A stretch of DNA of 64,000 bases from Candidatus Peregrinibacteria bacterium GW2011_GWA2_33_10. Lineage in GTDB: Bacteria; Patescibacteriota; Gracilibacteria; UBA1369; GWC2-33-13. Shown piece after piece: positions 16,953 through 59,335 of the stretch; position 1 is the stretch's first letter, and every line of letters begins with the position of its first letter. The position numbers and the translations under genes are program-made. The notes under the pieces were generated by a model. That model did not search any database and was not told the origin of the DNA. It saw only the letters and a list, made by a program, of their open reading frames with translations. The stretch is taken from the NCBI GenBank assembly GCA_000989565.1, contig LBOO01000010.1, forward strand, positions 24,819 to 88,818, written 5' to 3'.

Positions 16953-19900
16953 TCAGGGAGTAGGAAGAGGGTTAACTCCACGTTCTTCCAACAAATTAGC
17001 AGCTTCCATTCTATCCAATACAGCAGCTAATTGAGCTCTGTTTACGATTCCGTAAATGTCAGCTTTTACACCATTATCCGTGTCTTGACCGGTGATGATA
17101 CCATAGAAATTAAGTGCTCCGATTGCTTGACAGTAAGGCAAGTCAGCCTCGTTCGCACAATCCGAGAAAATTTCTTTTACGTCATCAACACTTAAGTCAC
17201 CTGCTACATCTTGCATGCCATAAGCACTTACAAGTAATTGAGCTAATTGACCTCTTGTGGCGGCGTTGAAGTAATTTGTTTGAGAATTACAATTTGTCCA
17301 ACCATTGTCTTCACAAGTTCGGATATTACCTTTTGCCCAAGCCGGAGCATTTTCAGGATTTGTCGGCTCGCCAGTTTGGTCTTTTCCGTATTTATCACGA
17401 ACGATAGTTGTAATTACTTCAGCTAAAGCTGCAGGATCGCCCGGAGCAAAGCTTTTATCGGTATAATCATTTTCAATTTCTTTACCTTTGATCATACCCA
17501 ATTGGCTCATAGCATTTGCTGACTTGTAATACCAGTCATCAATTTTTACATCGCCAAAATCAGTTAATCCTTCTTCAACAGCATATTTTTGTTCTTCGTT
17601 CTTTAATTTTATAATTGCTGATTTTGCTGTTGTTAAACAATTGATATCTTCTTTAGCGACACAAGCTTCGATTTCAACACGTTTGGCTTCGATTTTAGAA
17701 GCCATTTCGTCGTTAATCGGATTTAATTTAGCCAATTCCGTAGTAGCTCCATCAAATTGTGTTTTTAATTTTTTGTTCTCTGAAGCCAATTCTTCGTTGG
17801 CTGATTCCAATTCGGCAATTTTTTGAGCCATTTCGCTCATTCTTTTACCGATTTCATCTACTTTTCCGGTATCACCGACAGCTAGAACATTTTCCATTAA
17901 ATTAGTATGTTTCTGTTCCAATGCTGATTTAACCTGTTGATTTGTGATTGTCGCTACAGTTTCAACCAAGCTGGAAACAACACTTTGGGTCATTTGTTCA
18001 ACTTGTTGCAACATTTGAGCCATTTTGGCTTCAAACATCGCATTCAATTGTTGTTCAAATTGTTCAAAACTGACTGCTCTTGATGATTCTCCTGAATCAC
18101 CTTCTTCAAACATGTATCCAAATTTATCTTGAATTTGTTCATTATACATGCCTTCTTGATTTTTCATAGGGTAGCCCATTCCGGCTCCGCCTGAGATCTG
18201 CATCAAAGCGCGTTCGAAGTTTTCTTTGATAAATCCGGCTGAACGCATTGCTTCTTCAGCGCAGCCAAAATCTTCTACTGCTATACATTTTTCAGCTTCA
18301 TTGGATAATCTTTTTGCTTTATCCAAAATTTTAATTAATGCATCTGTATTTTTGCCTTTTGCTTGTAAATCAGAGATAATTCCTTCTCCTTCAGCTATTC
18401 CGCTCTTTAAATCTTTTACCCATCTAGAAATATCTTTGCCCATTCTGACATCTTTTACAGATTCATGAAGGTTTTTCACTTGTTCCCACATATCTCCCAT
18501 TTCCCAACGAGCATCATCAAATGCTGTTCTTACTGTATCGCCGTCTCCGCTATTGAATGCTTCTTCAATTGAAGTTACAAAAGCAGTACAAGTTTCCACT
18601 ATTTTTTTAGCGGCTTCAGCATCTGCGCCTTCTTTTACAGCTCTACCTGTTTCTTTTTCAATATTTTTACATTCTCGTACAAAGTTTTCTTTTTCACGAG
18701 ACATGTTTGCCAGCATCTCGAAACTTTGGAAAGACTGCCACATATCTTGGCGGCTCCAATTAAGTTCGTCTCTGCCTCCTTGGCATTCCTGCATTTGAGA
18801 CATATATTCCATCTGATCATAACAAGATTTTACAGTGTTAACTACGGCCTCAAAGTCAGTTAATTTAGTTTGAAAAGCGGCAATGGCTGAATTATCTGAG
18901 CCAAGTTGTTTTGCCATTTTTTCAAGCATTCTTTTCCATGTTTTCAAATCGTTTGCATTCTCGCGTTCAACTTCTTTTTTCATTCTTTCAATATCTTTTT
19001 GAGCTCTTGGATCTTCAGAAATTTTTGGTCCGTTTTGGTCAAAATTTCCTTGCTCAAAATTTGGACCTTGCCATTGCTGTCCTTCTTTTCCATTGTTAAA
19101 ATTGTAATTTCCCCATGGATCATTTGTCATTGGAGGATTCATTCCAGGCTGCCCCGGCATTCCAGGTTGAGTTGGAGCTCCATATTGAGGATTCATAGTA
19201 TTATTCATGGCTTGTTCACAACTCATGTTTGGAGGAAAACATGGAGCATCTGTTACGTTTCCACACCATGTACCGCCATTAGCAGAACATTCTTCCTGAT
19301 CCATATACATCCAATCAGTACCGGCATCCGGATATTTTTGATCGGGATATTGCTGTCCAGGTTGTGTACCGTTTGGATATTGTTGTCCAGGGTATGGTTG
19401 TGGTTGTGTACCGTTCGGATATTGTTGTCCAGGGTATGGTTGTGGTTGTGTACCGTTCGGATATTGTTGTCCAGGGTATGGTTGATAAGGTTGTGTACCA
19501 TTTGGATAAGGTTGACCATTTGGTTGTGTGCCGTTTGGATATTGTTGTCCAGGCTGTGTGCCGCTTTGTTGATCACAGTGTACCTGACCATCAGGTGTTT
19601 TATAACAACCTGGAGGAACTCCTTGTTGATCCATTGGATATTGTTGTCCAGGATATGGTTGATAAGGCTGTTGGCCGTTTGGATATGGCTGTCCGTTTGG
19701 TTGTGTACCATTTGGATAAGGTTGTCCATTTGGAGGTGGCATTTGTCCGTCCGGTGGTGGTGGCATGTTGCCATTCGGTGGTGGTGGCATATTGCCATCC
19801 GGTGGTGGTGGCATATTGCCGTCCGGTGGTGGTGGCATATTGCCGTCCGGTGGTGGTGGCATATTGCCGTCCGGTGGTGGTGGCATTTGTCCCTCAGGTG

Positions 19901-20045
19901 GTGGTGGAGGATTATCTACCTGAGTCTTCAGGTTTTCTGTTTGGATGGCTGTTGCCAATACCAAACTGAAAGTCAAAACAGCAAGCACTGACGCGCTTAC
20001 TAATTTCGCTTTTTTACTTAAACTAATGTTTCCTCTTTTTTTCAT
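16953..20045 (-). CDS. Large secreted surface protein: Pro-rich repeats, coiled coil, SLH domains
   Basis: About 1030 residues from the ATG at 20045; an in-frame start at 20141 adds an unlikely 32 residues. A signal peptide (basic start, hydrophobic VSASVLAVLTFSLVLATA) is followed by a Pro-rich stretch of 8-residue repeats (GNMPPPPD) and 14-residue Gln/Tyr/Pro repeats (PGQQYPNGTQPQPY). A Cys-containing segment comes next, then a long helical/coiled-coil region (about 380-850) and a C-terminal about 200 residues with SLH-like modules (FGDVKIDDWYYKSANAMSQLGM, ATRGQLAQLLVSAYG). SLH domains anchor proteins to cell-wall polymers. The likely role is in the cell envelope or adhesion. A strong terminator follows. 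Confidence 0.8.
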   Translation of the reverse strand: MKKRGNISLSKKAKLVSASVLAVLTFSLVLATAIQTENLKTQVDNPPPPPEGQMPPPPDGNMPPPPDGNMPPPPDGNMPPPPDGNMPPPPNGNMPPPPDGQMPPPNGQPYPNGTQPNGQPYPNGQQPYQPYPGQQYPMDQQGVPPGCYKTPDGQVHCDQQSGTQPGQQYPNGTQPNGQPYPNGTQPYQPYPGQQYPNGTQPQPYPGQQYPNGTQPQPYPGQQYPNGTQPGQQYPDQKYPDAGTDWMYMDQEECSANGGTWCGNVTDAPCFPPNMSCEQAMNNTMNPQYGAPTQPGMPGQPGMNPPMTNDPWGNYNFNNGKEGQQWQGPNFEQGNFDQNGPKISEDPRAQKDIERMKKEVERENANDLKTWKRMLEKMAKQLGSDNSAIAAFQTKLTDFEAVVNTVKSCYDQMEYMSQMQECQGGRDELNWSRQDMWQSFQSFEMLANMSREKENFVRECKNIEKETGRAVKEGADAEAAKKIVETCTAFVTSIEEAFNSGDGDTVRTAFDDARWEMGDMWEQVKNLHESVKDVRMGKDISRWVKDLKSGIAEGEGIISDLQAKGKNTDALIKILDKAKRLSNEAEKCIAVEDFGCAEEAMRSAGFIKENFERALMQISGGAGMGYPMKNQEGMYNEQIQDKFGYMFEEGDSGESSRAVSFEQFEQQLNAMFEAKMAQMLQQVEQMTQSVVSSLVETVATITNQQVKSALEQKHTNLMENVLAVGDTGKVDEIGKRMSEMAQKIAELESANEELASENKKLKTQFDGATTELAKLNPINDEMASKIEAKRVEIEACVAKEDINCLTTAKSAIIKLKNEEQKYAVEEGLTDFGDVKIDDWYYKSANAMSQLGMIKGKEIENDYTDKSFAPGDPAALAEVITTIVRDKYGKDQTGEPTNPENAPAWAKGNIRTCEDNGWTNCNSQTNYFNAATRGQLAQLLVSAYGMQDVAGDLSVDDVKEIFSDCANEADLPYCQAIGALNFYGIITGQDTDNGVKADIYGIVNRAQLAAVLDRMEAANLLEERGVNPLPTP
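19361..19490 (-). repeat. 42-bp tandem repeats coding PGQQYPNGTQPQPY
   Basis: About three near-identical 42-bp units within the surface-protein gene encode a 14-residue Gln/Pro/Tyr repeat. Degenerate copies continue to about 19740. Confidence 0.8.
19749..19885 (-). repeat. 24-bp tandem repeats coding GNMPPPPD
   Basis: About five to six copies of a 24-bp GC-rich unit in the surface-protein gene encode an 8-residue Pro-rich repeat. Several units are identical in DNA, which suggests recent copy-number change. Confidence 0.85.
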
Positions 20046-57099: not shown

Positions 57100-57227
57100 G
57101 ACTTCTATTTATCATGTTTGCTATCTGTAGGCAATATTTCAGGGTCTAATTTTTTTTATTGTCAATATTTTTTTTAAAAATCATTTTTTTTTGTATTTTC
57201 TTATTACTAATTTTTAATTTTATTTTT

Positions 57228-57914
57228 ATGAACGCGCTTTTAATTCACAGTGGTCAATCATTGATCATGAAAAGGCTTTTTAGCGGATTGAAGTATCTTG
57301 ATGTGAATCTTGATTTGATCAACACGGAAAAGGAGGTCGTGCAAAAAATTTATAAACATTCTTATTTGGCCATACTTATAGATATGAGCATGTCTAAAGA
57401 AATATTCATAAATATTTTAAATAATTTAGAAAAATCCCTGATTAATACTCCGATTATCTTTTTTCACCAAAATGAAGATTTATCATTAATGGAAAAGATA
57501 AAAAATCAATTTACGAATGTTTTTTTCCAAAAATTCCCTTTTATGTATCATGATGTTAAAAACTTATTTTATAAAATAAAAAATTTAAAAAACACTTTCC
57601 ACGATGAAAATATGAATTTTCCGGAATTGCTTTTAGATTGCGAAAAAAGAAGAGTCATCAGGTCCGATAAAATTATTAGTCTAAGAAACAAGGAATTCAA
57701 TTTGCTGAAATATTTAATGACGAATTCCGGAAAAACGCTTTCCAGAACGGATATTTTGGATGAAGTTTGGGATCATAACGCAAATTTATTCACCAATACG
57801 ATTGATGTTCATATCAATTCTTTGCGGCGGAAAGTCGATAATGGTTTTGAACATGAACTAATTCGAACGGTGCATGGAGTCGGGTATATGTTTTGGGATG
57901 GGGTGTCGTCATAA
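57228..57914 (+). CDS. OmpR/PhoB-type response regulator with degenerate receiver
   Basis: 228 residues from the ATG at 57228 (an in-frame GTG/TTG-type start at 57159 would add a hydrophobic stretch that I discount). The receiver starts NALLIHSGQS instead of a run ending in Asp-Asp, so the acidic pocket is missing. A candidate phospho-Asp remains in AILIDMSM. The C-terminal winged helix is intact: NKEFNLLKYLMTNSGKTLSR, TIDVHINSLRRKVDNG and IRTVHGVGYMF. It probably binds DNA without standard phosphorylation. No partner kinase gene lies in the window. Confidence 0.8.
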   Translation: MNALLIHSGQSLIMKRLFSGLKYLDVNLDLINTEKEVVQKIYKHSYLAILIDMSMSKEIFINILNNLEKSLINTPIIFFHQNEDLSLMEKIKNQFTNVFFQKFPFMYHDVKNLFYKIKNLKNTFHDENMNFPELLLDCEKRRVIRSDKIISLRNKEFNLLKYLMTNSGKTLSRTDILDEVWDHNANLFTNTIDVHINSLRRKVDNGFEHELIRTVHGVGYMFWDGVSS

Positions 57915-57916
57915 CT

Positions 57917-57948
57917 CAAGAGACAAAACCTAACGGTTTTTTCTCTTG
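57917..57948 (+). terminator. Hairpin with T-run behind the response regulator
   Basis: CAAGAGA..AAAACC and GGTTTTTTCTCTTG form a stem with a TAAC loop, directly after the stop at 57914. A second copy of the inner part is at 58099-58147. Confidence 0.55.
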
Positions 57949-58147
57949 GACTCTTTTTCCCTATATTGTTATTCTTAAAAATACTTATTGCTTAGGGCAG
58001 CTTTTTCTCAACTTGGGAACCCACGAGACCCAAGTTGATAAAAAGCTTTCTTTGCAATAACTATTTTTAAGAATCTTTATTCTATCTCTTTTAATAAAAC
58101 AAAACCTAACGGTTTTTTCTCTTGGACTCTTTTTCCCTATATTGTTA
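57923..58147. repeat. 49-bp direct repeats flanking a long inverted repeat
   Basis: Identical 49-bp copies (57923-57971 and 58099-58147) bracket a near-palindrome: left arm 57971-58017, right arm 58029-58074, loop of 11 nt. The arms pair at more than 80% of positions by eye. The right-hand direct repeat runs into the stop codon of the LCP gene. No coding sequence is evident. It may be a small mobile element, a structured RNA or a terminator-derived duplication. Confidence 0.75.
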
Positions 58148-59335
58148 CTGGTTTATCAAGGTTTCGACGTGGGTTTTGATGTCTTGATAGTTGCCGCTAA
58201 TTGGTAAAAGAATGTATTGGCCTCGGGTATTTTTGGTGGAATGCAGAAAATTTGAGGTGCTTAGGACATTTTCGCGGATAAATGTAAAATTTTTATAATT
58301 CTGATAATACGAAAACGCGCTTAGCATTTCGATATTCGTATTAATGCCGGCCATTAAATTGGTAAACAGTTTATAATATTCAGGAAGATTTTCACTTATG
58401 CTCATTGATTTTAATTTCGCATAAAAACTTTCTATTATTTGCTGCTGTCTTTTGGAGCGTTCAAAGTCGGATGATGATTTGCGGCTGCGAGCGTATTTTA
58501 AGGCTGTAGCGCCATCCAAATGCTGCTGTCCGGCTTCGATTTCGAAGACTTGATAACTGCTATCAGGTCCCGGGTAAGATTTGTCATAAATCTTTTTTGG
58601 GACATTGAGGTCTATTCCTCCAACTGAATCAATTACTTCGACAAATGAATTCAAATCAAGGACTATATATTTTTCCGGTAGAACTCCGCTTATCAGATAA
58701 ACCGCTTCAGCTATTTTTTCGATTCCGTATTTATTATAAATTTCATTAATTTTTCGTCCGTTAAAATATAAATCGCGAGGATAGCTCACTAAAATTATTT
58801 TTTGTGTTTTTTCGTTTATGGTTGCGGTGATAATTGAATCAGTAAGTCCGTCTCTTTTTCCTAAAATTAAAAAATCCAAATGATTATCGGCATAAAAGCC
58901 TTGATCGGAAGTTAGTTCATTTCCAATTGCTTTAGCTACTAAATTTTCAATCTTTTGATCTTTTATGTAATTATTTTTTTGCATTATTTGTAAGTCTATT
59001 TGCGCTTTTTGTAATTCCAATTTTGTTTGTTCCAAATCTTTTTCCGTATTTTCCAAAATACTTAATTTTTTATTTATTAAATTCAATTGTTTTTCCAATT
59101 TTTTTATTTTTAAATCCGACACTTTTGATTCAAATGTCTTTATGAGCATTTCTTTTTCCATAGCTCCAACTTCTTGAATCAGCGAATTTGAATTGAATTT
59201 CCCTTTACTAATTTCATCTCGTATACGAAAGAAATTGATAATAAACGCTGTACTGACAACAACAATCGTCAAGCAAACAGCAATTATTTGAATTTTTACA
59301 TTTTTATCTTTATTTTCAAAATTAAGTTTAAACAT
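58145..59335 (-). CDS. LytR-CpsA-Psr (LCP) family protein
   Basis: 396 residues. One membrane segment (IQIIAVCLTIVVVSTAFIIN) precedes a coiled-coil (about 60-140), then the LCP catalytic domain: DHLDFLILGKRDGLTDSIITA, VSYPRDLYFNGRKINEIYNKY, VEVIDSVGGIDLNVPKKIYD, and ALKYARSRKSSSDFERSKRQ. LCP enzymes move glycopolymers from a lipid carrier to peptidoglycan or to proteins. The next gene in the direction of transcription boundary is the TraG-like gene 14 bp upstream (59350). It ends inside a 49-bp repeat. Confidence 0.9.
   Translation of the reverse strand: MFKLNFENKDKNVKIQIIAVCLTIVVVSTAFIINFFRIRDEISKGKFNSNSLIQEVGAMEKEMLIKTFESKVSDLKIKKLEKQLNLINKKLSILENTEKDLEQTKLELQKAQIDLQIMQKNNYIKDQKIENLVAKAIGNELTSDQGFYADNHLDFLILGKRDGLTDSIITATINEKTQKIILVSYPRDLYFNGRKINEIYNKYGIEKIAEAVYLISGVLPEKYIVLDLNSFVEVIDSVGGIDLNVPKKIYDKSYPGPDSSYQVFEIEAGQQHLDGATALKYARSRKSSSDFERSKRQQQIIESFYAKLKSMSISENLPEYYKLFTNLMAGINTNIEMLSAFSYYQNYKNFTFIRENVLSTSNFLHSTKNTRGQYILLPISGNYQDIKTHVETLINQ

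Follow-up and report, generated by a model that had tools for sequence, protein, structure and literature searches.

The window analysed here is the whole 64,000-nucleotide stretch of Candidatus Peregrinibacteria bacterium GW2011_GWA2_33_10, whose draft genome (G000) comprises 1.26 Mb in 30 contigs and is 87% complete. Within the window, two convergent genes face each other across a nested repeat that, according to the window's open reading frames, lies exactly between them. The features of the locus are as follows (window coordinates).

57159 to 57914, plus strand: upstream gene with a C-terminal OmpR/PhoB-type DNA-binding domain (Trans_reg_C, PF00486, E = 1.7e-25)
57916 to 57949, plus strand: hairpin H1, TCAAGAGACAAAACC-TAAC-GGTTTTTTCTCTTG, identified by its fold and homologous to H1 of the covariance model R1 (below)
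57923 to 57971, plus strand: first copy of a 49-bp direct repeat, covering most of H1 and the linker up to the base of H2
57935 to 57961, plus strand: mirror repeat formed by the H1 3' arm TTTTTTCTC, the spacer TTGGA and the linker CTCTTTTTCC (8 of 10 mirror matches)
57971 to 58074, plus strand: hairpin H2, with an outer stem, an internal loop (GCTTAGGGCAG / CTTTCTTTGC), an inner stem and an apical loop carrying the family motif (GGGAACCCACGAGACCC), identified by its fold and by a 78% identical paralogue
58013 to 58033, plus strand: apical motif specific to the class, present here as the variant TTGGGAACCCACGAGACCCAA of TTGGGRCCCACRAGACCCAA
58075 to 58098, plus strand: T-rich spacer separating H2 from the second repeat copy
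58099 to 58147, plus strand: second copy of the 49-bp repeat, a partial H1 and linker, read as a secondary duplication
58145 to 59335, minus strand: convergent gene of the LytR-CpsA-Psr family (PF03816, E = 1.4e-32)

The first-pass annotation, made from the letters of the window, had described two identical 49-bp copies around inverted arms of 47 and 46 nt with an 11-nt loop, lying between two convergent genes and ending in one stop codon, and this description is accurate. The repeat copies are identical at 49/49 positions with a spacing of 176; the arms occupy 57971-58017 and 58029-58074, and the loop (58018-58028) is AACCCACGAGA. A repeat search lists the arms as a stacked pair of inverted repeats, each at 95%. 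The stop codon of the plus-strand gene (end 57914) abuts H1, which begins about 1 nt past it and thus shows the stop-codon placement that marks the family, and the stop codon of the minus-strand gene (58145-58147) falls within the second 49-bp copy. It had further been claimed that each 49-bp copy carries a terminator-like hairpin. This holds for the first copy, where the hairpin is complete (CAAGAGA..TCTCTTG plus AAAACC..GGTTTT), but not for the second, which lacks the lower stem's left half and retains the small AAAACC/GGTTTT core alone. The folding energy of the element lies far below that of 200 shuffles on both strands (z of -8.3 and -9.2). Elsewhere in the window, at 19329-19931, there are repeats at 24-, 42- and 45-nt spacings that probably code for a low-complexity repeat protein.

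Relatives in the genome and across the class

Looking for further copies in the genome, as the first-pass annotation had suggested, was productive. A paralogue of the palindrome, 78% identical and carrying the exact apical motif, lies on another contig (C7:53018-53118), and the same contig holds a deletion derivative (C7:32651) and a remnant (C7:40677). The hairpin part alone is found 3' of a CorA-like gene (C15) and 3' of a tRNA (C20). The arms diverge among these same-genome copies yet still pair, as in GTCATTGC/GCAATGAC, CTTATTGC/GCAATAAC and TTGATCGC/GCGATCAA.

A 22-nt match in other genera yielded the apical loop motif TTGGGRCCCACAAGACCCAA, which occurs with at most two mismatches in 12 of 89 genomes of the order (reversed control, 0). 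Searched exactly against a collection in which a single genome represents each of 84,980 species, the loop 20-mer gave 13 matches, all titled Peregrinibacteria or Gracilibacteria. The 16-mer core of the loop is present in 40/288 genomes of the class and absent from 343/343 sampled genomes of the phylum's other classes, with one match in the control. The loop consensus RCCCACRAGA with GGG/CCC closure is present in the window with one extra A, as seen in its 11-nt loop. Viral matches to the 20-mer were set aside as a coding coincidence, since those inspected read as a single phage protein (..MDWDPQDPNW..) and the sequence around them does not fold as the element does. The first-pass annotation had held that a single-copy element without conservation would speak against its reading; the same-genome paralogue, the class-wide distribution of the loop core and the match of model R1 to the window all contradict that picture. 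The 288-genome class search gave no loop motif in any genome of families f25, f29 and f33. As a separate observation, transposase frames in these three families often contain in-frame TGA, as expected if TGA is read as an amino acid.

A two-hairpin unit with compensated stems

Reading the loci side by side, we find a constant order of H1, a pyrimidine linker and H2. An example is H1 CGTGAGAGACAAACC-TAC-GGTTTTTCTCTCACG, linker AGCTCTCTTTTCCCT and H2 GTCGC-TCC-AGCG..GGG-GCCCACGAGA-CCC..CGCT-TC-GCGA; in the window's order, H2 is extended by a long outer stem. The H2 stems vary within one genome but compensate (AGCGTTGGG/CCCAACGCT, AGCAATGGG/CCCATTGCT, AGCGATGGG/CCCATCGCT), while the loop and bulges stay constant. 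Conservation of secondary structure had been proposed as a check, and it bears out the fold: among 36 copies, two-sided changes occur in 19 of 28 pairs, with 120 compensatory cells against 39 in column shuffles, which ignore relatedness, and the paired fraction is 89% for the true structure against 39-52% for slid structures, a control that does not ignore it. These are the uniform copies of family f19; MAFFT and RNAalifold on the long H2 copies of the window's own order misaligned them and returned no consensus.

The covariance model R1 was built from the same 36 copies, among which neither the window nor its order is represented, and it re-finds the window copy at 57911-58005 (24.1 bits, E = 0.0057 in 449 kb). 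At 24 bits and with the extra A in its loop, the window copy is diverged; R1 matches the C7 paralogue more weakly still. Across the class, 56/288 genomes have matches at E <= 0.001, with scored candidates saturating at 13 per genome. About ten strong copies lie in 320 kb of one genome (G112) and many in stretches of its congener G182; in these two genomes several copies have other apical loops and the same UCC/UC internal loop. In Rfam, no family was found above the gathering threshold, and a permissive scan gave chance microRNA-type matches and true tRNAs; a literature search of partial coverage returned nothing relevant to the element. One copy (L248:9867-9998) has a 30-nt insert in the H2 apical loop with CCTTCGTCAGGCTCAGGACAGGC, resembling a short dispersed repeat, CCCTGAGCTTGTCGAAGGG, found nearby in the same genomes.

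Position at gene ends

Where both neighbours could be called, the upstream frame lies on the same strand in 65 of 87 copies, a figure that is approximate because ORF calling was automatic. For copies with a frame of at least 100 codons ending nearby, the median distance from stop codon to H1 is 2 nt. The upstream genes, named from sequence by eye, are unrelated and include SecY, HisS, ClpP, DnaA, phosphoglycerate kinase and sortase, among others, and in G112 a convergent gene pair is served by two facing copies. Sequence 3' of H2 is T-rich in the family, with 65% T in the first 6 nt and about 30% further on. For about one quarter of the copies with the loop motif, no gene on the same strand clearly lies upstream, and some copies adjoin tRNA genes. 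Several copies (L033-L035, L041) adjoin tRNA-Ser-like genes, and beside one such gene (L034:1500-1780, G068:C28) the 3' half of H2 and its flank form three tandem repeats. The ordinary gene-end hairpins of the window's genome are A-tract/U-tract terminators, which lie farther from the stop and carry no mirror; H1 was therefore rejected as the genome's standard terminator. The tail of H1 in the window is CTCTTTTTCCC, and the locus was not called by a simple terminator scan.

A linker that mirrors the first hairpin

The linker is a mirror image of the 3' arm of H1. In the window this reads TTTTTTCTC-TTGGA-CTCTTTTT, and examples elsewhere are TTTTCTCTCG-TGA-GCTCTCTTTT (G044) and CCCCCTC-ACGAG-CTCCCCC (G011). 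The mean mirror score is 7.45 of 10, against 6.09 ± 0.12 when linkers are swapped among copies. After thinning to 32 dissimilar copies, it is 6.72 against 5.66 ± 0.19, a value reached in 0 of 2000 permutations. Some copies (for example L003 and L116) have little mirror. Gene-end hairpins from other classes, from E. coli and from the window's genome outside the element did not have this excess, and the linker considered as an alternative Watson-Crick partner, that is, as a direct repeat of the arm, gave a much weaker signal than the mirror. H-DNA mirror repeats and RNA triple-helix 3'-end elements have a purine 5' arm, a pyrimidine 3' arm and a pyrimidine tail in mirror register. A purine 5' arm followed by a mirror linker, as found here, is the layout expected of a hairpin bearing a parallel pyrimidine third strand, in which a triplex could form.

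Gain and loss between relatives

Comparing the congeners G112 and G182 at 11 testable sites, we find the element in both at 4, in G112 only at 3 and in G182 only at 4 (one of which may be a decayed copy), so that 7 of 11 sites are polymorphic. In the alignments, the whole unit is present or absent from the stop codon onward, with neither a clean empty site nor a constant target duplication found between these two genomes. For 26 of the 36 copies the nearest relative sits in another genome, which argues against a recent burst. The Y1 (IS200/RAYT-type) transposase, PF01797, is found in 127 of the 288 class genomes, and none was detected in the carriers G000, G011, G042, G044, G112, G149, G182 and G229; having no association with the copies, it was rejected as the element's partner.

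What the element may be

The window holds a member of an undescribed, class-specific family of two-hairpin gene-end elements in Peregrinibacteria and their kin. Its repetition, compensated structure, position at gene ends, coupling of arm and linker, restriction to one class, and gain and loss between congeners are observed. Because the family follows stop codons, has compensated stems and keeps a mirror between its hairpins, the element is probably a gene-end signal rather than a local curiosity. We put at about even (roughly 0.5) the probability that it is a lineage-specific, repeatedly gained and lost structured element of gene 3' ends, a terminator or 3'-UTR that would end or protect transcripts. 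In that case it would form the 3' end of the mRNA and work at the level of the transcript: H2 and the T-rich stretch after it would stop RNA polymerase, while H1 and its mirror linker would fold back into a very stable, possibly triple-helical cap that may help to pull the RNA out or block 3' exonucleases. Gene-end hairpins would be copied or converted, and units would reach new genes in this way. Against termination, however, the H1 linker is C-rich and makes a poor U-tract, and termination at H1 alone would leave H2 untranscribed. The loop-motif copies that lack a clear upstream gene and the divergence of the window copy also count against this reading. Fast turnover, like the presence after unrelated genes, would be expected of a selfish element no less than of a functional one. 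A more specific proposal, which we make tentatively from the sequence pattern and think rather unlikely in its full form, is a triple-helical gene-end signal, where the linker would lie on H1 as third strand, the mirror of arm and linker would be selected as both change, and, together with H2, the structure would end transcription or cap the mRNA in place of a long U-tract.

The turnover between congeners, the placement after unrelated genes and the presence, in five copies, of direct repeats made of hairpins, 19-49 bp long, on both sides of H2 or of H1-H2 would also be expected of a selfish palindromic repeat of the REP or MITE type, moved as single-stranded hairpin DNA by a trans-acting enzyme, with gene ends tolerating the insertion and the long direct repeats representing target duplications. 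Such mobility, the main rival reading, is a possibility that we take seriously while holding it to be improbable on balance, since Y1 transposase went undetected in eight carriers including the window's own genome, most copies are closest to a copy in another genome, neither a clean empty site nor a constant target duplication was found, and a start 0-6 nt from the stop is too exact for tolerated random insertion. A mirror repeat that persists while its sequence changes could instead point to duplex DNA, with homopurine-homopyrimidine tracts adopting H-DNA in supercoiled gene ends and blocking RNA polymerase or replication forks; with tracts of 8-11 nt only, and with an inverted-repeat stem in H1 and a covarying stem in H2 that H-DNA would not need, we regard this as quite improbable. 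An independent trans-acting small RNA, one of the identities raised in the first-pass annotation, would agree with the strong fold on both strands and the conserved apical loop, but is very improbable: the copies are numerous within a genome and each is tied to a stop codon, they share no consistent promoter, and no Rfam family scores above threshold. Least credible is the idea that a local duplication made an ordinary bidirectional terminator at this locus alone, with no wider meaning: the convergent genes and the exact 49-bp repeat would fit it, and the paralogues, the class-wide family and the covariation contradict it.

Among known systems, the element resembles Rho-independent (intrinsic) terminators in being a gene-3'-end hairpin, with H2 followed by a T-rich stretch, yet it differs from them in its two coupled hairpins, conserved internal and apical loops, a C/T-mixed H1 linker that mirrors the H1 arm, and a start 0-6 nt past the stop. 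Like REP and BIME sequences with their RAYT transposases, it is a short extragenic palindrome in many copies with compensating stems; unlike them, it is a two-hairpin unit fixed at stop codons, and Y1 transposase is undetected in many carriers. Class C group II introns and other terminator-targeting elements are likewise tied to terminator hairpins, whereas this element is about 100 bp long, has no ORF and matched no intron model in the Rfam scans. With H-DNA and RNA triple-helix 3'-end elements it shares the purine and pyrimidine arms and the pyrimidine tail in mirror register (a putative triplex here), and it departs from them in having a second, covarying hairpin and conservation across a bacterial class. 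To our knowledge, little is known about how transcripts are ended or protected in the ultra-small, uncultured Peregrinibacteria and Gracilibacteria, and this element, which occurs across the class and is missing from Rfam, provides a concrete signal that can be tested through its compensated stems, its conserved loop and a mirror linker that changes together with the arm. Bacterial examples in which mirror symmetry, and with it triplex potential, is conserved beyond base pairing would be rare, and this would be one. The element may also help to trace how gene ends move or are converted in reduced genomes.

Origin of the nested repeat

The locus looks nested only incidentally: what the family conserves is H1-linker-H2, and the 49-bp copy on the 3' side is a secondary, partial duplicate of H1. 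The first-pass annotation had proposed a miniature mobile element or a bidirectional terminator built by duplication. H1 has indeed been duplicated, and four more copies carry a duplication of this kind, with the hairpin duplicated on either side of H2 or of H1-H2, but it is not the part that is conserved; its idea of a terminator-like, disseminating element was near the mark, because the unit is repeated, gained and lost between relatives, and placed at gene 3' ends. The base of H2 is exactly where the 49-bp repeat stops, and this suggests that H1 and its linker were copied once more beyond H2, most simply by a polymerase slip around that hairpin; target duplication would be an alternative origin. 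The element does not behave as an insertion sequence or MITE, since its direct repeats, found in few copies, range in length from 19 to 49 bp. A 41-bp repeat flanking the L092 copy was considered as a target duplication and rejected, being a partial duplicate of a methionyl-tRNA-synthetase-like start. At this locus (L092:1383-1604, G149:C1), a truncated second start of that gene lies directly upstream of H1, before the intact one. Finally, a segment between two facing copies is inverted between the congeners (L203:16395-16638 and G182:C33:85740-85890, L247), which suggests recombination between H1 copies.
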